Assembly (NCBI GenBank): GCA_023384495.1
Contig: JAHDWG010000014.1
Location: 1 to 36,118 of the forward strand
DNA from: Caldilineaceae bacterium
GTDB taxonomy: Bacteria > Chloroflexota > Anaerolineae > Caldilineales > Caldilineaceae
Length of the DNA stretch: 36,118 nucleotides
Reading direction: 5' to 3'
Below, one piece after another: positions 7,998-29,637 of this stretch. The notes under the pieces are model-generated. The model was not told the origin of the DNA, did not search any database, and worked only from the letters and a program-made list of their open reading frames with translations. Within the stretch, counting starts at the first letter, position 1, and the number at the start of each line of letters is the position of its first letter. The position numbers and the translations under genes were made by a program.

Positions 7998-10022
7998 CTA
8001 CGCGTGATTTTCCGGGTCATCCCAGAAATAGGTCTCGGTGTTGGCCAGATGCTCATCGCCGGTCGGGTCGTCGATGGGCAGGCCCTGCGGGAAGTTGCGC
8101 ACCCCATTTTTAACGATGATGGGGGCCGGCAACTGCCCCAGATAGGCGATCATCGGCAGCTCTTCGGCCCAGATGTCCAGGATCTGGTAGAAGAGTGCGT
8201 TGCGCGCATCCGCATCCGGCTCCGCTGCGCACTGGTCCCACAGATCCCAAATCGTGCGGATCCAGTGGTCGGCGGGCGGTTCTTCAGCCACCGGGTTGGA
8301 GGGATCGGTGCGATAGTAGCCCCAGCCCACGGCCCATGGGCGGTCGGGCTGGGTGCCGATCCAGATGATGGGCGCCACCAGCGGCAACACGGTGCGGTCG
8401 CCGCCCCACCAGGCCGCCTCGATCTCGTTGGCCCGATAGTGCTCCTCATAGAGCGAACGCTCCACGCCGCGATAGGTGGCCTTGACGCCGACCGCCGCCA
8501 AGTAGCGGATCACCTGATTCACGGCGTCTTCGTCGGCAGAGCCGGGCAGCGCCGTACCTTCGATGATAAAGCTGAGCGTCTCACCGCTGCCGTCCTTCCA
8601 CAGCCGGAAGCCGTCGGCATCCTTCTCCGTATAGCCGGCGGCGTCCAGCCGGGCGTTGGCCTCATTCGGGTCATACTGGATATAGGCGTTGCTCAGCTTT
8701 TCGTAATACTGGGGCGAGCTGCTGATGGGGCTATATTGGCGGGGGGTGGCCAGCCCATCAAAGATCAACTCGTTGAGCGCGTTGCGGTCCACCGCCACCG
8801 ACAGCGCGATGCGGACATCACGATTTTGGAAGAATTCGCGCAGGCGCGGGTTCTTGGTTGTGTGGTTGGGTTGGAGCGCCTGATGGCCCGAGCTCGTGCC
8901 GACGAATACGCTATAGGCGCCGTTGGCCTCGTTCTCTTTGAAGAGCGTAAAATCGGCGATGCTCACATGGCGATTTTGGAAGTCGATCTCGCCGTTGGTG
9001 ATCCACAGATTGAAGACCTCGGTGGAATCGAACAAGCGGTGCGAGATGCGGTCCACATAGGGCAATTGGTTGCCGTCGGCGTCCACAGCAAAGTAGTAGG
9101 GGTTCCGCTGCATCAAGAACACTTCATCCGAAAGCTCGTTCTGGGCAAGCCAGGGCGCCGTCGTCGGCAGTTCTGTGTTAAAGAACCAGAGACGGCGATT
9201 GTCCAGGTAATAACTCGACCACGAGTCAAAGCCCGCCGTCGACACCTTCTCCTCCAGCCCGGCTGGGTCGTCGGTCACCGCCATATGCCACTGCGCCAAA
9301 TGGTGCCCAGGCGAGTAAGGCGGCGGTGTGGGGCGGGCCAGCCGGTAGCCGAACAGCGGGTTGGAGTGGGCAAAGGTGAACTTGAACGTATAGTCGTCGA
9401 TCACATCCAGTTGCATCAACGTGCGTTCGGCGCCGGTTACCCAATCAGCCGGTGGCGCGGGAAAGAGATCGGTGTTGGTGATTTCGTTCTCGTACCACCA
9501 CTGCACATTGGCGGCGGTAAACGGTGCGCCGTCAGACCATTTCATCCCCTGGCGCAGATGGAAGGTCCACTCGGTGGCGTCGTCATTGACCTCCCAAGAT
9601 TCGGCAATGTGAGGGCGCAGGTTCAGGTTCTCGTCATACCAGACCAGGCCATGGTCCTGGCACTTGGTTGGCCCCCAGCGATCCGACACGCCACGGAAGG
9701 CGCGGCGGAATGTGCCGCCATAGTTGCCTGTCTGTTCGACAACCGGCAACACGCCAGGATTGGTGGGCAGGCGCTCGTCTACCGGCGGCAACGAACCGGC
9801 CTGCACCAGTTCGGTCAGCATAGGCGCTTCGTTGTACTGACCTTGCGGCACGGACGCAGCAGGCGCTGCTGGCGCGGCGGCTGCCGGCGCTTCGGCGGCG
9901 GGCGCCTCTGCGGCCGGGGCGGCGCCGCCGCCACACGCAGCCAATGCCGCCCCGACTGCCGTATACGCAGACAGGCGCATGAACTGGCGACGGGAGACCG
10001 CGCGCTTTTGGATAGGTTCCAT
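7998..10022 (-). CDS. ABC transporter solute-binding protein, family 5 (SBP_bac_5), Tat lipoprotein
   Basis: This is the extracytoplasmic ligand-binding subunit of the importer. The N-terminus has a twin-arginine motif (S10-R11-R12-Q13-F14), a hydrophobic stretch and a lipobox LAAC with C30 as the lipidated residue, so it is probably exported folded and anchored to the membrane. An Ala/Pro/Glu-rich linker (31-57) follows. The mature 610 residues show family-5 features such as the WTFHLRQGMKWSDGAPFTA segment and DVRIALSVAVDRNAL. The ATG at 10022 has a very strong ribosome site, AAAGGAGGA. The family binds peptides, nickel, opines or oligosaccharides; GH4 and other catabolic neighbours favour a glycoside. 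Inverted repeats flank the gene on both sides. Confidence 0.95.
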   Translation of the reverse strand: MEPIQKRAVSRRQFMRLSAYTAVGAALAACGGGAAPAAEAPAAEAPAAAAPAAPAASVPQGQYNEAPMLTELVQAGSLPPVDERLPTNPGVLPVVEQTGNYGGTFRRAFRGVSDRWGPTKCQDHGLVWYDENLNLRPHIAESWEVNDDATEWTFHLRQGMKWSDGAPFTAANVQWWYENEITNTDLFPAPPADWVTGAERTLMQLDVIDDYTFKFTFAHSNPLFGYRLARPTPPPYSPGHHLAQWHMAVTDDPAGLEEKVSTAGFDSWSSYYLDNRRLWFFNTELPTTAPWLAQNELSDEVFLMQRNPYYFAVDADGNQLPYVDRISHRLFDSTEVFNLWITNGEIDFQNRHVSIADFTLFKENEANGAYSVFVGTSSGHQALQPNHTTKNPRLREFFQNRDVRIALSVAVDRNALNELIFDGLATPRQYSPISSSPQYYEKLSNAYIQYDPNEANARLDAAGYTEKDADGFRLWKDGSGETLSFIIEGTALPGSADEDAVNQVIRYLAAVGVKATYRGVERSLYEEHYRANEIEAAWWGGDRTVLPLVAPIIWIGTQPDRPWAVGWGYYRTDPSNPVAEEPPADHWIRTIWDLWDQCAAEPDADARNALFYQILDIWAEELPMIAYLGQLPAPIIVKNGVRNFPQGLPIDDPTGDEHLANTETYFWDDPENHA

Positions 10023-10065
10023 CTAGTCCTCCTTTGTTGAAACGACTCAGTTGCTTACCGACATT

Positions 10066-22080: not shown

Positions 22081-22308
22081 CTAGTTGTCGAGAAAGTTCA
22101 CAGCATCGCCCACCGAAACAATCTGCTGGGCTTGCTCATCGCTGATGTCGCCCCCAAATTCCTCTTCAAAGCGCATGATCAGCTCGACCAGGTCCAGGCT
22201 ATCGGCCTCCAGATCGTCACGGAACTTTGCTTCCATGGTGACTTCTTCGGGCTCGACTCCCAGTTGATCCACAATGATATCGCGTACGCGTTCAAAGGTG
22301 GTAGCCAT
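22081..22308 (-). CDS. acpP: Acyl carrier protein
   Basis: ACP carries growing acyl chains in fatty-acid synthesis. The 75-residue acidic protein has the DSLDLVEL motif; S37 receives the phosphopantetheine arm. It shows the usual four-helix pattern and the [16 protein letters not shown] segment. GAGGAG lies about eleven bases before the ATG. It is monocistronic: a strong promoter lies at 22428-22456 and a terminator follows directly. No other fatty-acid genes are nearby, which is less common than a fab-cluster location. Confidence 0.95.
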
Positions 22309-22755: not shown

Positions 22756-23087
22756 GCCTCATTTTGAGTTCATCTCCGGGTGCATTCCACAAAAGAGCGT
22801 GGTCAATCGCCACTTTTATGTGACTCCCATCGCCGTAATTCCTACCCATAGAACTTTCGACAAAATCTGGCAGATCATTCGACAAAATGCGAAAAACCCT
22901 ACAGAGTTGTAACTGAAATGTAACTATACTGGCTATAGTAGAGACACGATTGTGAATGTCGTAACAAATGGTCGCCGGTAACTGCGTGATGGTGCGGCAA
23001 ACATTTTCGACCCACAATCTGAGGTTGTAGGTGATTCCGGCAAGCAGCGAAGTCACGGGTTTGACAAGTAGATTTGGCTATTTACCG

Positions 23088-23207
23088 GAGCTGTGAAGTT
23101 TGAGGGGAGCTTACTTCACAGCTCTACGTTAGCACCTCTTTGGTTCCTCCTTTGTTGAAAGCCCATCACCCTGTATCTCCATACAGGGTGGTGGGCGACC
23201 TCTTTTT
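23088..23207 (+). ncRNA. Candidate small RNA with two hairpins and a terminator
   Basis: A perfect 12-bp stem (GAGCTGTGAAGT 23088-23099 with 23113-23124) is followed by a 36-base linker containing CCTCCTTTG, which resembles the anti-Shine-Dalgarno end of 16S rRNA. Then comes a 16-bp hairpin with one G-U pair (23161-23176 with 23181-23196) and TTTTT (23203-23207), a strong intrinsic terminator. A TTGACA lies at 23061-23066 but the -10 is poor. No coding frame is associated. Confidence 0.4.
23161..23207 (+). terminator. Strong plus-strand intrinsic terminator
   Basis: The stem 23161-23176/23181-23196 (16 bp, one G-U pair, CTCC loop) is followed six bases later by TTTTT. No protein gene on the plus strand precedes it within 1.8 kb, which points to an unannotated transcript. 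Confidence 0.7.
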
Positions 23208-23340
23208 AGGCGCAATGATCATTGCTGACCAAATGGCCGCCGCCAACTCCATCATTTGGCGCACTCGCATCTGCGTCTTTTGTGTCACCTCAAACCACCA
23301 GCAAAAATACGCCAATTGGCGGATGCGCAAAGCCAGCCCC

Positions 23341-23449
23341 TATGATAGACTCTGGGCGAGTAGAAATGGTGCATCTACTCGTCTCCTTTTGGGGTTTCCT
23401 TTCTCCTTGCAAACTCGCCGGCTCGATGAGCCGGCGAGTTTGCATTTTG
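23341..23449 (+). ncRNA. Second candidate small RNA ending in a perfect 15-bp hairpin
   Basis: TATGAT (23341-23346) could be a -10, with TTGGCG 19 bases upstream as a weak -35. The transcript would carry an 8-bp hairpin (CGAGTAGA 23357-23364 with 23374-23381), a pyrimidine-rich linker, and a perfect 15-bp stem (23409-23423 with 23429-23443) followed by ATTTT. The final hairpin points along the plus strand and so does not serve the minus-strand gene that ends at 23470. Confidence 0.4.
23409..23447 (+). terminator. Perfect 15-bp hairpin with short T run
   Basis: GCAAACTCGCCGGCT (23409-23423) pairs perfectly with 23429-23443 around a CGATG loop, followed by ATTTT. It works as an intrinsic terminator on the plus strand. 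On the minus strand the stem is followed by AAGGAG, so it is a poor terminator for the cystathionine gamma-synthase gene. Confidence 0.65.
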
Positions 23450-23469
23450 GGTTTGCCATAACCCTCGCC

Positions 23470-24687
23470 CTATGCCAGGCTTTCCAACGCCTGCTTTAGG
23501 TCAGCAATCAGATCGTCGGCCTCCTCGATGCCCAGGCACAGCCGCACCAGCTCGTCGCGGATGCCCATTGCCGCCCGATCCTCTGGTGGGACATTGGCGT
23601 ACCCCATCAACGCCAACGGGCTGACCATGCTCTCGACGCCGCCCAGGCTGGGGCCAATCGTGGGGATGGTCAGCGCATCCATGAAGCAGTGGGCCCGCGC
23701 CGCGTCGCCCTCAATCTCAAAGCTGACAACGCCACCAAACCCCCGCATCGTCGCCGTGGCCAGCGCATGGTCGCGGTGACATGCCAAACCTGGATACCAG
23801 ACTTGGCGTATCTGAGGCTGCTCGGCCAAATAGCGAGCCACCGCCAGCCCGTTGGCATTCTGTCGCGCCACCCGGAGCGCCAGCGTTTTGATGCCGCGCA
23901 GGATCAGGTACGCAGCATGGGGATCGACCACATACCCCAACATGCTGTGCGCCTGGCGCAGGCGGGTTGTCAGGTCATACGAGCCCACAATGGCGCCCGC
24001 CATCACATCATTGTGCCCGGCCAGATATTTGGTGACACTGTGGATCACCAGATCGACGCCATAATCGAGGGCGCGCAGGTTGACGGGTGTGGCAAACGTC
24101 GTATCGATCACCGTCTTGATCTGGCGCGGCTTCGCTATGTCGACCAGGCGAGCGAGATCAATGCAATGGTTGAACGGATTTGTGGGCGACTCGGAAAAGA
24201 TGAGGCGGGTATTTGGTCGGATAGCCGCCTCCAGCGCCGCATAGTCGCCGTGGGGCGTCACCGTGACTTCGATCCCATATCGGGGAAGAAAGTTCTGGCA
24301 ATAGAGCAACGTGTTGTAATAGCACTCATCGGTGAGGATCAGATGGTCGCCGTGGCTGAGCATGAGCAACAAGGTCGCTGTCACCGCGGCCATTCCGCTG
24401 CTAACGAGGATGGCGTCCTCAGCGCCCTCCAGCGCAGCGATCTTGGCCTCTACTGCGCGCACCGTTGGGTTGCCATAGCGACCATACTCTTCGCGCTCCG
24501 GCTCTTCCCAGAACATGTGCTCTTCGGTATAGTTGACGAGCGCGGCCGTCGATTCAAACGTATAAACAGCCGTCTGCACAATCGGCACGGTAAGGCTGTT
24601 GTGGGCGCGAAAGCGCCGCTCTCCGGCGTGGACTGTGGCCGTTCCCAGTGTCGGTGAAGGAGGCCGTGAATTGGCGTCAACTGTCAT
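23470..24687 (-). CDS. Cystathionine gamma-synthase/lyase-type PLP enzyme
   Basis: Cys/Met-metabolism PLP enzymes form or split thioethers in the exchange between cysteine, homocysteine and methionine. The 405-residue protein has the family marks: YGRYGNPT (68-75), SSGMAA (96-101), ESPTNP (166-171), D195 that binds the PLP nitrogen, and the Schiff-base K220 in [13 protein letters not shown]. The C-terminal GVESMVSPL segment is typical. Synthase, lyase and O-acetylhomoserine sulfhydrylase cannot be told apart safely. I chose the ATG at 24687 because family homology starts here; in-frame starts at 24768 and 24810 would add unrelated residues, though the ribosome site at 24687 is weak. A highly structured region lies upstream. 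Confidence 0.88.
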
Positions 24688-24820
24688 ATTGTCATTTTCG
24701 TCCAAAGAATATTGAGGCTCTCCAGCGTCGGACGGGAATACGCGCATTCTGGACTGCAAAATCCGCATGGCGCATTCCCCAGAGAAATCCAGAGAACCAA
24801 AATTGATCACCTGTAAAAGT

Positions 24821-25070: not shown

Positions 25071-27077
25071 TTACTCTTTGCCCTGGGCTTTGGCCGCCGC
25101 ACGCGCCTTGGCGGCGGCGATGCGCTCCTGGGCAGTCGTGCTCAACTTCGGTGTTGCAGGAGCGGCGGGCGGCGCCTCTGCAGCAGGTTCGGCGGGCGCT
25201 GGCGTAGCAGGGGCGGCCGCACCGCCGGCTGCGGCAAGTTTGGCCGCTGCGCGGGCCTTGGCGGCAGCAATGCGGTCGGCGGCGGCGCCGCTCAAGTTAC
25301 CAGGTGCAGCCGGCTCTTTGGCTACTGCCGGTGCGGCAGGCGCAGGTTTGGCGGCGGCGTGGGTGCTCTTCTCCGGCTGGAGAAGGCCGGCCAGATCCTG
25401 CAACAGATGCCAGTTGTTGAGACGATCCTGCTGGGCAGCGAGCAACATTTCGCCCGGGTTGCCATCCTTGTCAAAGTGCTTTTCAAAGCGCCCTTCTCCG
25501 CGGGCAAAGTCGATAAAGGTGAAGGGCTGCTTTGTCTTGGGGTCCACATACCAATCGTCATTGATGGCGGGGTTGCCCTTGAGGTCGAGCCGTTCGCGGA
25601 TCGTGCGCCCCTTGCGAGGATCGTAGACCAGCAGCGGGAAGGCGCGGCTGTCTACCGCCGCGCGCGCCCGTTGGGCGGCTTCATGGTCGCCCACACCATG
25701 TTCGGGCTGGCAGGTGGTAAAGACGCTGATGATGGCCGGGCCGGGATACTCGTTGGCGTCCAGCACGGCCCGGTAGAAGTGGTTCATGTGGGCGGCGGTG
25801 GTCTGCGCCACAAAGACATTGGGGTGCATCATGGCGATCTGGGCAATCTCTTTGCGCGCTTCGGATTTACCCAGCTCTTCCTTGCCAAAGGGGCTCATCT
25901 TGGTGCCCTGGCCCTGGAAGCTGCCGGTGGACGCCTGCCCGCCGGTGTTGGAGTAGACCTGCGTGTCGAGCAGCAACACCTTGATGTCCATCCCGCTGGC
26001 AAACATGCGGCTGAGCGCGCCAAAACCGATGTCAAGCATGGCGCCGTCGCCGCCGATCACCCAGAGCCGCTTCTTCTCCCACCCCATCTGGTCCCAGCGG
26101 GCGCGCACGCCCATGGCGTCGGTGGGGCCATTCTCAAAGAGCGAATTGGTCCACGGGACGCCCCATGGATTGTAAGGGTAGGTGCTGCCATAGACAGTCG
26201 TACAGCCGGTGGAGTTGACGATGCCGATGTTCTCCTGACCCACCTGGAAGGCGGTGGCGGCCAGCCACATGCGCAGCGCGGTCGCTTCGCCACAGCCGGC
26301 GCACGAACCGGCCCCGCCCACATAGAGCAGGCTGCGGTCGGCCAACATCATGTCCACCAACACCCGTTCGTTGATAAAGCGTTCTGGCGTGGGCGGCAGC
26401 TTACGGAAGAAATCAAAGGCCTCACGATATTGGGGGACGGTCTTCTCTTCCTTCTGGATCATCTTGAGCGCGTTGTAGCCCAGGTCGGCGCAGACCTGGA
26501 CACACTCGGCGCACCCCTTGCACTTGGTCGGGTCGATAAAGATGCCAAACTTGCCGCCCGAACCGGCTTCCTTCTTCTCCGGCACACTGTAAAACTTGTT
26601 GGTGACCGCCCACTGGCGACCCAACCAATCGCGCTCCTCTTCGGGCGTCTGCGCCAGGGCCAGTTCGAGCACCGACCCCTCCGTCACCTTGCCCAAGATG
26701 GCGGTGTCGGGGCATTCGGTGACACAGGTCATGCAGCCCACACAGTTGTCCTGGTAGAATTCAGGGATTTCAGGGGCAATGTAGGAAAAATCGCGATAGG
26801 CGCCCGTGCCCGCCGGGATGAGCGACCGGGCCACGCTGAGATCAGCGATCAGGTCATCGTCCTGGCCGGCTTCGTAGGCGCTGACAATGCGGGCGTTGAA
26901 ATCAGCGATATAGGCGTCGAGGTTGAGCTCAAAGAGCGCGCCGGGGATGTCACAGGCATCGGCGCCATTGGTTGCGCCGTGGGTGTGGCCGTTTGCCTGG
27001 CCATTGGTATGCCCGTTGGTTGCGGCCTGTTGTTCAACCGGTTCGTCGTCGATCAGGAAAATCGGGCTTGCAGCCAT
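25071..27077 (-). CDS. Pyruvate:ferredoxin oxidoreductase, ferredoxin plus TPP-binding subunit (beta-delta type)
   Basis: PFOR splits pyruvate with CoA into acetyl-CoA and CO2 and passes electrons to ferredoxin. This 668-residue subunit covers the C-terminal part of NifJ-type enzymes. Residues 18-40 are an Asn-Gly/His-rich linker. Two [4Fe-4S] sites follow: C112/C115/C118/C122 and C186/C189/C192/C196. The cluster cysteines of the TPP domain begin with C259 and C262 (GSCAGCGE), and GGDGAMLDIG near 355 binds TPP-Mg; NTGGQASTG follows. Residues about 570-668 are an Ala/Pro-rich tail that contains RIAAAKARAAAK twice. I chose the ATG at 27077, which has AAAGGAG upstream; an ATG at 27098 overlaps the previous stop. 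It is coupled with the CBS-bearing subunit. Confidence 0.92.
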   Translation of the reverse strand: MAASPIFLIDDEPVEQQAATNGHTNGQANGHTHGATNGADACDIPGALFELNLDAYIADFNARIVSAYEAGQDDDLIADLSVARSLIPAGTGAYRDFSYIAPEIPEFYQDNCVGCMTCVTECPDTAILGKVTEGSVLELALAQTPEEERDWLGRQWAVTNKFYSVPEKKEAGSGGKFGIFIDPTKCKGCAECVQVCADLGYNALKMIQKEEKTVPQYREAFDFFRKLPPTPERFINERVLVDMMLADRSLLYVGGAGSCAGCGEATALRMWLAATAFQVGQENIGIVNSTGCTTVYGSTYPYNPWGVPWTNSLFENGPTDAMGVRARWDQMGWEKKRLWVIGGDGAMLDIGFGALSRMFASGMDIKVLLLDTQVYSNTGGQASTGSFQGQGTKMSPFGKEELGKSEARKEIAQIAMMHPNVFVAQTTAAHMNHFYRAVLDANEYPGPAIISVFTTCQPEHGVGDHEAAQRARAAVDSRAFPLLVYDPRKGRTIRERLDLKGNPAINDDWYVDPKTKQPFTFIDFARGEGRFEKHFDKDGNPGEMLLAAQQDRLNNWHLLQDLAGLLQPEKSTHAAAKPAPAAPAVAKEPAAPGNLSGAAADRIAAAKARAAAKLAAAGGAAAPATPAPAEPAAEAPPAAPATPKLSTTAQERIAAAKARAAAKAQGKE

Positions 27078-27097
27078 CAAAGGTTCTCCTTTCCGCA

Positions 27098-29506
27098 TTA
27101 TGCGGCCACCGCGGTCAATTCGGTTTCAGACAGGACGCCAACCGGTTTTTGATGCCCATTCTCTTGTTGCACCACCACCAGGCTGTGGAGCCCGTGCTCG
27201 ACCAGCTTCTTGCGAGCGTCCTCCAGATGATCGGTCGGCATAGCCGTGAGCACATCCCGGCGCATGATCTGGGCCGAGGAGAGGTCGGCGAGCGACTTGT
27301 GTTCGCCATTGCCGCCGTTGCCTGCACGGGCTTGCTCGATGTCGCTGCTGCTGACCAGCCCTTGCAGGTTGCCCTCGTTGTCGATGACGACCACCGCGCC
27401 GACACCGTGCGTCTCCATCGCCTGGGCGATCTTGGCGACTGGGGTAGTCAGGCGGCAGGCAAAGACCGGGCTGCGCATGACATCTTGCACCAGTTTGCCG
27501 TTGGTGTGGCCTGCTTTTCCATTGGTCTGGACGCCGTTGGTTTCGACTGCGACCTGCCCGTCGGCGAGGATGACCTCGCGGGGGATCTCCAACACTTCGG
27601 TAAAGCCGCGGCGGACACAGGTCAGATTGTCCTGGACGATCCGCTCCCCACGCTTGCCAAAGTATTTGCGCAGGCTCTTCTCGACCCCGGCCATTAGTTC
27701 CTGTTCACCGATGTGACGCCGCTCGAGGAAGGGGGTGGCCTTCAAAAAGACCCCCAAGAGGACGATGCCCTGCATACGCACTTGCAGGTCGGGCACCGAG
27801 GCCACCGTACGGGCAATCGCGGCTGCGTCGAGGTAGAGCACCCGGATGTCGCGCTCGCGGATGATGCGCCGTGCATAGGCCGGGATATTGTTCCAAACCT
27901 GCTGCGGGTCGGTGTAGCTCGACTGGACAAAGACGGCGCCCCCCGGCTGCAACCCGGCCAGCGGGTTGCCCGAATTGAAGGCGTTGACATCGTTGAGCGG
28001 CACAAACTCGACAAAGTTCATCTCGCAGTGAGTGCGCACCGGTTGGTCCGCCACCGTCAGATAATAGGTTGTGGGAAGTCCCTTCTTCTCCGAGCCATAT
28101 TTGGGATAGGCCTGGACATAGAGATCGAAGAGGTCGCCGACAATGGTGGCGATGACCTTATTGGTGGTGACCGAGCCATACCCACCCACCGAATGGCCGC
28201 GCATGGAGAAGGCGCCATTGGGCCGCACATCGGGGTCAAAATTGTTGGTCAGCGCCAGTTCGTGTTTGATGCCGAGGACAAAATAGCGGCGCCCTTCGTG
28301 AATCATATTCTCGACCGTGGCGATAAAGTCGCCGGGGCGCACGTCGCGGCTGCCCAGGCCGGCGGCGCCGCTGTAGATCACCGGCAGGCGCTCCACCTTG
28401 GGGTAGCCATCGGTTCCCACCAACGCATCGGCAAAGGCGGCCTTGATCTCGGCGGTCAACGGGTTACTCTGGCCCATGGGGTTGTCCATGCGTTCGAGCA
28501 CGGCAAAGGCTTTGGTGTTGCGCAGGCACGCCACCAATTCGGGGCCGGGGAAGGGGCGGAAGCTGGTGACGTGGACGACGCCGACCTTCCAGCCGCGCTG
28601 TTCGCGCAGGTAATCGCACGTCACTTCGGCGGTTTCGGCCATGCCGCCCATGCACACAATCGCGTACTCGGCGTCCTCCATGCGGTATGGCTCGATCAGG
28701 TCGTAGCGCCGCCCGGTGAGTTCGTAGAATTCGTCCATGGCCGCCTTGAGCGCGGGCTTGACGCGGTCGTAGAAGGCGCGCTGGGCGATCTTTCCCTTCA
28801 TGTAGCTGTCTTGATTTTGGACCACACCCGACATCATGGGCTTGTCGGGGTTCATCAGGTTGCGCAGCTTCTCTTCCGGTTTGCCCATAAACTGCTTCAT
28901 CAATTCGGGTTCGAGCAGCCGTACATTTTCCACCGTGTGGGTCGTCAGAAAGCCGTCTTGGGCGCTCAGGAAGGGAGTCTGGCTGTCTTCGGCGGCGCGG
29001 CGGGTGATGAGCGCCATGTCGCCGGCGCCCTGGGCATTCTTGGCGATGGTGATGCCCCAACCCGTATCGGCCACGCCCATAATATCATCATGGCCGGCGT
29101 GTACGTTCAACCCCTGGCTGGTGAGCGCACGCGCGCCGATATGAAAGACGATAGGCAACCGTTTGCCGGAGATGACGTAGAGCACCTCTTTCATCAAGAT
29201 CAGACCCTGGCCCGATGTAAAGTTGGTGACACGGCCACCGGCCACGGCAAACCCTTCGGCGGCTGAGGCGGACGAGTGTTCGCTTTCTGGCTCCATGAAG
29301 ATCAGCGGGTCTCCCCACAGATTCTTTTGGCCGTTGGCCACGGCAAGCGCATAGTGCTGCCCCATCACCGTCGACGACGTGATCGGGTACGCACAGGCGC
29401 CCTGTGTGATATTTACCTCCACCCAGGCGACGGTTCCGCTGCCATCATCGGTCGTAGGGATACCCGGGTAGCGGACTGCGCCAGGGGACTTGCCATTGTT
29501 ACTCAT
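27098..29506 (-). CDS. Pyruvate:ferredoxin oxidoreductase alpha-gamma subunit fused to a C-terminal CBS pair
   Basis: This 802-residue subunit holds the N-terminal domains of PFOR. Residues about 15-250 form the pyrimidine-binding domain I (TQGACAYPITSSTVMGQ; EPESEHSSASAAEGFAVAGGR), about 270-390 domain II, and about 410-630 the gamma domain (RGHSVGGYGSVTTNK). After a TNG-rich linker (about 650-670), residues 671-802 form two CBS motifs (VQDVMRSPVFACRL...GLVSSSDI and QIMRRDVLTAMPT...GVLSETEL). CBS pairs usually bind AMP, ATP or S-adenosyl compounds and regulate the attached enzyme. I do not know this fusion as a standard PFOR layout. The ATG at 29506 has GGAGGTG seven bases upstream. It is first in the operon and divergent from the dehydrogenase genes. 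Confidence 0.92.
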   Translation of the reverse strand: MSNNGKSPGAVRYPGIPTTDDGSGTVAWVEVNITQGACAYPITSSTVMGQHYALAVANGQKNLWGDPLIFMEPESEHSSASAAEGFAVAGGRVTNFTSGQGLILMKEVLYVISGKRLPIVFHIGARALTSQGLNVHAGHDDIMGVADTGWGITIAKNAQGAGDMALITRRAAEDSQTPFLSAQDGFLTTHTVENVRLLEPELMKQFMGKPEEKLRNLMNPDKPMMSGVVQNQDSYMKGKIAQRAFYDRVKPALKAAMDEFYELTGRRYDLIEPYRMEDAEYAIVCMGGMAETAEVTCDYLREQRGWKVGVVHVTSFRPFPGPELVACLRNTKAFAVLERMDNPMGQSNPLTAEIKAAFADALVGTDGYPKVERLPVIYSGAAGLGSRDVRPGDFIATVENMIHEGRRYFVLGIKHELALTNNFDPDVRPNGAFSMRGHSVGGYGSVTTNKVIATIVGDLFDLYVQAYPKYGSEKKGLPTTYYLTVADQPVRTHCEMNFVEFVPLNDVNAFNSGNPLAGLQPGGAVFVQSSYTDPQQVWNNIPAYARRIIRERDIRVLYLDAAAIARTVASVPDLQVRMQGIVLLGVFLKATPFLERRHIGEQELMAGVEKSLRKYFGKRGERIVQDNLTCVRRGFTEVLEIPREVILADGQVAVETNGVQTNGKAGHTNGKLVQDVMRSPVFACRLTTPVAKIAQAMETHGVGAVVVIDNEGNLQGLVSSSDIEQARAGNGGNGEHKSLADLSSAQIMRRDVLTAMPTDHLEDARKKLVEHGLHSLVVVQQENGHQKPVGVLSETELTAVAA

Positions 29507-29637
29507 GTTGAACACCTCCAAATTACGGATTACACAGGCGTTTGCAGATCGAGAAAATCGCGAGATGGTAGCCAGTGCGGAGACTCCTCACGCAAGTGAG
29601 GGCGCAACGCGCCACTAGCAAACTAAAACAGAGTCCT

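Follow-up and report, generated by a model that had tools for sequence, protein, structure and literature searches.

Gene context and layout of the locus

The window, by which we mean the whole stretch of 36,118 nucleotides of Caldilineaceae DNA analysed here, contains a predicted small-RNA gene of this little-studied family on the plus strand (Table 1). The two strong hairpins originally predicted on this strand, the second of them an intrinsic terminator, lie where they were placed, and the fold energy of 23061-23207 (-60.7 kcal/mol) is far below the shuffled mean of -38.8 (z -5.7; 0 of 200 shuffles equal it). A start at 23061 is too late, since the closing stem and the promoter are found further upstream. 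This segment is probably the 3' portion of a free-standing, previously unnamed small-RNA gene that extends over about 22946-23207 and has its own promoter and its own terminator, as judged by sequence alone. The original statement that no gene precedes the hairpins holds for the plus strand and fails for the minus strand, where acpP and a MobA-like gene, both located between LexA and the RNA, do lie upstream. Further downstream, at 25071-29521 on the minus strand, are two adjacent genes that carry pyruvate:ferredoxin-oxidoreductase-type domains, and the larger of them also has CBS domains near its end.

Table 1. Features of the predicted small RNA, its surroundings, its candidate target and its putative relatives
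Feature	Position	Strand	Remarks
Candidate target gene, extracellular solute-binding protein family 5 (SBP_bac_5)	7998..10022	-	PF00496, 8.8e-61
Candidate target site, SBP ribosome site TTTCAACAAAGGAGGA	10027..10042	-	Shine-Dalgarno (SD) sequence just upstream of ATG
acpP	22081-22308	-	Named from sequence; 637-nt gap before predicted RNA
Direct repeat TGTAACT-4-TGTAACT, period 11	22908..22925	+	Probable activator site, by sequence
Predicted -10 box TATAGT	22934..22939	+	TATACT at same spacing in L005, L006
Predicted small RNA	22946..23207	+	About 262 nt, from promoter and terminator positions
P1 closing stem, 5' arm CCGGTAA	22975..22981	+	7 bp in window
P1 closing stem, 3' arm TTACCGG	23082..23088	+	Abuts P2 flush
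Conserved core of predicted small RNA	23084-23202	+	Matches model R1
P2 hairpin (hairpin 1)	about 23088..23124	+	SD-like loop GAGGGGAG at 23102-23109
Linker, tandem anti-SD motifs CACCTCTTTGG then TTCCTCCTTTG	23133..23154	+	CACCTCCTTTGGTTCCTCCTTTG in most homologues
16-mer complementary to SBP ribosome site	23145..23160	+	TCCTCCTTTGTTGAAA
Intrinsic terminator	23161..23207	+	16-bp stem 23161-23196, tail GACCTCTTTTT to 23207
Second small-RNA-like element	23349-23450	+	Hairpin, C/U-rich linker CTCCTTTTGGGGTTTCCTTTCTCCTT, 17-bp terminator; z -8.2
Next downstream gene	23470-24810	-	Opposite orientation to RNA
Type B RNA, own genome (G000)	C168		L043
Type B RNA, G013	C5		L029
Type B RNA, G017	C205		L070/L110
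Type B RNA, G022	C47		L098
Type B relative, divergent, G011			L027

The linker between the hairpins carries two anti-SD motifs, the first of which has one C fewer in the window than in the homologues described below. In the predicted RNA of the window the two motifs are unpaired with probabilities of 0.62 and 0.74, and the second is unpaired at only 0.25-0.50 in the predicted folds of L002, L003, L005, L006 and L008. The conserved linker sequence, CACCTCCTTTGG, resembles the 3' end of 16S rRNA as it is generally known, not as read from this genome.

Exact period-11 repeats of at least 7 nt occur near the promoter in three of six lineages (L001, L005 and L008), and L006 has a shorter one. From the end of the second repeat to the -10 box there are 9 nt in L001, L005 and L006, and 10 nt in L008, where the -10 box is poorer. 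A rough, post hoc estimate puts the chance of such repeats at P about 1e-5. This spacing is typical of OmpR/PhoB-type regulators, and the repeat may be a response-regulator site common to several of these loci.

Distribution and conservation

A blastn search with 22880-23250 against 61 genomes (60 relatives plus the window's own) gave matches in eight: the own genome, six true homologues (G002, G004, G009, G013, G022 and G026, all Caldilineaceae of the Chloroflexota), and G059. With the own genome, the carriers of this RNA, here called type A, number seven genomes in five genera. The G059 match (L007) was rejected as a homologue, being an SBP ribosome site without the RNA. Of the 396 genomes in the class, 7 were matched by R1, a model built from the seven sequences; the matches are five A loci, a divergent, B-like locus in G011 (type B is described below), and G250, whose match (L028) was rejected as a chance lone terminator beside coding sequence. 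A pattern scan of contigs returned six loci, four from Caldilineaceae, one from Chloroflexi bacterium CFX7 and one from an uncultured Litorilinea. The sister genera g8, g6 and g16 yielded no homologue, and no Rfam family reached its gathering score, the only two sub-threshold matches having E values of 0.49 and 0.82.

The motif CCTCCTTTGGTTCCTCC matched in 29 of the 396 genomes; among the part of the listed places that were read, most were rejected as apparent coding sequence or an unrelated g78 repeat, the exceptions being the A loci, L043 and G013:C5. Genomes of genus g78 (G113, G173, G190, G226; for example L053, L054, L055) each hold many CCTCCTTTGNTTCCTCC-like copies, and those read belong to a dispersed repeat that has nothing to do with the RNA.

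In A2, the alignment of type A sequences, the proportion of cells that pair is 96.3%, compared with 88.3 on average after shuffling, and both sides have changed in 12 of 31 pairs, where shuffles average 4.9 (0 of 500 reach 12) and slid controls give 0-2. The comparison with the slid controls is biased in favour of the structure, which was drawn by hand on the same sequences. Such double changes affect 5 of 13 pairs in P2 and 7 of 13 in the terminator. RNAalifold independently predicts both of these hairpins; in the linker it proposes other helices (GGAG with CUCC, ACC with GGU) than the weak hairpin drawn by hand. The closing stem P1 is more variable, with 13-18 bp flush with P2 in L002, L003, L009/L004 and L006 as against 7 bp in the window; for L005 and L008 a scripted search gave no convincing flush P1 stem. 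By contrast with the freely changing terminator sequence, the linker is nearly invariant (most of CACCTCCTTTGGTTCCTCCTTTG is unchanged), is more conserved than its flanks and is the best-conserved single-stranded part, and the P2 loop GAGGGGAG is identical in all seven A sequences. The observed signal is much more than chance structure.

Homologues of RecO, LexA or both lie upstream on the RNA's strand at all seven A loci, RecO at six and LexA at five by the script's choice of open reading frames. This conserved neighbourhood fits vertical inheritance, not a mobile element, and we think it probable that the gene has been passed down by vertical descent within part of the Caldilineaceae. Compensatory changes, synteny and the conservation of the linker together give strong support to the original proposal of a small RNA with an anti-SD linker.

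A paralogous RNA and a second downstream element

A second RNA, type B, occurs in five genomes including the own one, a count that is a lower bound, and has the same plan as A: P2 with a TGGGGA loop, a CTCCTTTGGTTCCTCC linker and a terminator. In its P2 all 43 of 43 cells pair, and both sides have changed in 4 of 9 pairs. A and B occur together in three genomes, with their genes on separate contigs. Four of the five B promoter regions (L029, L027, L070 and L098) contain a palindrome, TTGTGC-N5-GCACAA or TGTGCA-N3-TGCACA, which resembles Rex- or Crp-type operators.

The element at 23349-23450, which follows directly downstream and has a similar plan, scores 22.3 bits against R1 (E 9e-5; 6 kb searched, filters off), a weak yet significant match, and is perhaps a diverged tandem relative of A. 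Its match to suhB/mmgR (RF00519), at 23376-23451, reaches 17.7 bits against a gathering score of 41. No such element was seen beside the A copies in relatives, and no phage record was similar to it.

Complementarity to ribosome sites of solute-binding-protein genes

The original prediction had also pointed to a 16-mer of the linker, TCCTCCTTTGTTGAAA, that recurs where its complement is the ribosome site of a solute-binding-protein (SBP) gene. Both points hold: the 16-mer is present exactly twice in the window, at 10027-10042 and 23145-23160, where 0.05 matches would be expected with up to 3 mismatches, and the complement of the first copy is a minus-strand SD before the ATG of that gene. Across the whole own genome it has three exact occurrences, one in the RNA, one at the window SBP and one at another SBP gene, on contig C384; two further places have 2 mismatches.

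Across eight carrier genomes there are 21 non-self ACAAAGGAGGA sites, 18 of them in genomes whose own linker contains the complement of ACAAAGGAGGA. In a flank-swap test an own-flank extension of at least 4 nt was found at 3 of these 18 sites, and the swapped flanks gave 0 of 54 (p=0.014, or 0.06 once the window site, which prompted the test, is removed). This count omits three G009/G011 sites because their linkers lack that complement; with them included, the figures are 3/21 own and 1/105 swapped (p=0.015). All three extended sites precede SBP genes, two in the own genome (G000) and one, an 18-mer, in G013; in the own genome two of eight non-self ACAAAGGAGGA sites share a 5-nt extension, both at SBPs. 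At G013:C7 a perfect 18-nt complement coincides with an SBP ribosome site.

The orthologue of the window SBP in G022 (67% identity) has a leader that forms a predicted 28-bp duplex with its own linker (-37.2 kcal/mol); among 500 shuffles that preserve the SD, 3 do as well. The corresponding duplex in the window (-31.0) is equalled by 13 of 500 such shuffles of the leader, and the window leader pairs slightly better with the G022 linker (-32.1) than with its own. Pairing of the G002 orthologue is poor (-17.2). Its leader and that of G026 are almost identical in sequence, and the orthologous leader in G013 has a plain SD. A loss of complementarity in relatives, which the original prediction named as grounds for its refutation, is seen in three of the four readable orthologous leaders, extended pairing being absent in G002, G026 and G013.

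Among 89 unselected SBP leaders from seven carrier genomes (90 fetched minus one without a start codon, the start codons being script-chosen) no preference for the own linker was found (p=0.97), and a co-evolution of leaders and linker across SBP genes at large is not supported by this test. The same 16-mer precedes a lipoprotein gene in G059, where no RNA was detected, and 3 of 10 AAAGGAGGAACC loci read in genomes of genus g8, likewise with no RNA detected, precede SBPs. Counts of AAAGGAGGAACC are on average higher in RNA-carrying genomes, mostly owing to G013, with genome size and SD usage as confounders. Each of the seven A-carrying genomes has 38-69 matches to PF13416. A block of this particular SBP message by the RNA is suggested at most, favoured by the extended own-lineage complementarity and the G022 duplex and weakened by the three orthologues that lack extended pairing, the shuffles that equal the window duplex and the lack of preference in the 89 leaders. 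We regard the SBP ribosome site as a plausible specific target, and SBP genes as a class would be good candidates because their SDs are strong.

Proposed action and alternative explanations

Our preferred explanation is that a vertically inherited small-RNA gene encodes a repressor that would act in trans through its anti-SD motifs, with SBP messages as its likely targets. In the fold that we propose for the RNA, a closing stem of variable length is followed by a hairpin whose loop is SD-like, then by the linker with its pair of anti-SD motifs and finally by the terminator. The linker would then pair with G-rich ribosome-binding sites of mRNAs and exclude ribosomes, and lineage-specific bases flanking the anti-SD would add selectivity; mRNAs for the solute-binding proteins of ABC transporters would be among the likely targets. 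Because it carries copies of the anti-SD, the RNA probably masks the ribosome-binding sites of nutrient-uptake genes and thereby silences them, and antisense occlusion of these sites appears to be the most direct reading of the mechanism. Conservation, structure, synteny, the paralogue and complementarity are observed, transcription, pairing in vivo, repression and the SBP regulon are what we infer, and we put the probability of this explanation at roughly 0.7.

The most serious competing account accepts a real small RNA whose true targets are other mRNAs, and puts the 16-nt SBP match down to chance at a strong SD; we give it slightly less than an even chance. It bears on the target alone and does not conflict with the opening part of the preferred explanation. 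The 13 of 500 shuffles that equal the window duplex, the 89 leaders without own-linker preference and the same site in G059 all favour coincidence, whereas the two SBP sites sharing the 5-nt extension in the own genome and the 28-bp duplex at the G022 orthologue speak against it.

The linker may instead mimic the 16S rRNA 3' tail through its tandem CACCUCCUUU motifs, so that the RNA titrates a factor that reads the tail, or the initiating complex, with a global effect and no chosen mRNAs. The likeness to the 16S 3' end, a conservation above that of the flanks and the absence of own-linker specificity in unselected SBP leaders would all suit such a mimic. Lineage-matched extensions at SBP sites do not, and in alpha-r14 anti-SD motifs suffice for antisense repression (PMC10746234); we consider mimicry unlikely. 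Less probable still is a cis-acting leader or attenuator, with riboswitch-like hairpins and a terminator ahead of a downstream gene. A switch could arise where one RNA combines a terminator, an SD-like loop and an anti-SD, and in G022 a plus-strand reading frame begins about 80 nt beyond the linker, but the orientation of genes disfavours this arrangement: the next gene in the window is on the minus strand, and downstream reading frames vary among loci, several being convergent.

Comparison with known regulatory RNAs

Two reports describe alpha-r14/NfeR1 of the Rhizobiales as having several identical anti-SD motifs in unpaired parts with divergent stems, and predicted targets that are mostly ABC transport systems, two SBP mRNAs being confirmed (PMC10746234, PMC3927594). 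The likeness lies in the repeated anti-SD motif, the divergent stems and the ABC/SBP targets, which here are candidates. The differences are that alpha-r14/NfeR1 has CCUCCUCCC in three hairpin loops, where the Caldilineaceae RNA has CCUCCUUUG twice, once in a putative weak hairpin and once in the linker, drawn as single-stranded, and that the Caldilineaceae RNA belongs to a different phylum and has no Rfam match. An Rfam model exists for alpha-r14.

The AbcR1 and AbcR2 RNAs of alpha-proteobacteria are siblings that regulate ABC transporters (PMC3712013). A and B may be compared with them as siblings coexisting in three genomes, with no sequence relation to AbcR apparent. The AbcR1/2 genes of S. 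meliloti are in tandem, unlike those of A and B. In the Firmicutes, RoxS/RsaE binds G-rich sites on its targets through several C-rich regions, and RoxS is repressed by Rex (PMC5419742). The predicted pairing of the Caldilineaceae anti-SD linker is similar, C-rich regions facing G-rich sites. RoxS answers to Rex; in the promoter region, A carries a period-11 repeat and B a palindrome, and no relation to RoxS is apparent. Our best reading is that the RNA would work like alpha-r14/NfeR1, AbcR or RoxS and yet be unrelated to them; beyond the anti-SD principle, no tested family feature is common to it and these systems.

In the literature available to this analysis, no base-pairing small RNA was described from Caldilineaceae or Chloroflexota, and the excerpt of a survey of 104 candidate RNAs gives for the phylum only Chloroflexi-1, from Chloroflexus aggregans, and the pan motif (PMC2864571). 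A wider reading, which we hold to be rather doubtful, is that the two sibling anti-SD RNAs of the Caldilineaceae would be a main post-transcriptional control of a very large ABC solute-uptake repertoire, with a promoter repeat of the two-component type for A and a palindromic operator for B. Their linker and the SBP leaders would co-evolve by lineage, and the resulting riboregulatory uptake system of the Chloroflexota would have converged on what alpha-r14/AbcR do in alpha-proteobacteria and RoxS does in Firmicutes. If the preferred explanation is confirmed, the Chloroflexota would have a defined regulatory RNA family with SBP genes as a ready target hypothesis, and anti-SD control of nutrient uptake would seem to have arisen repeatedly.
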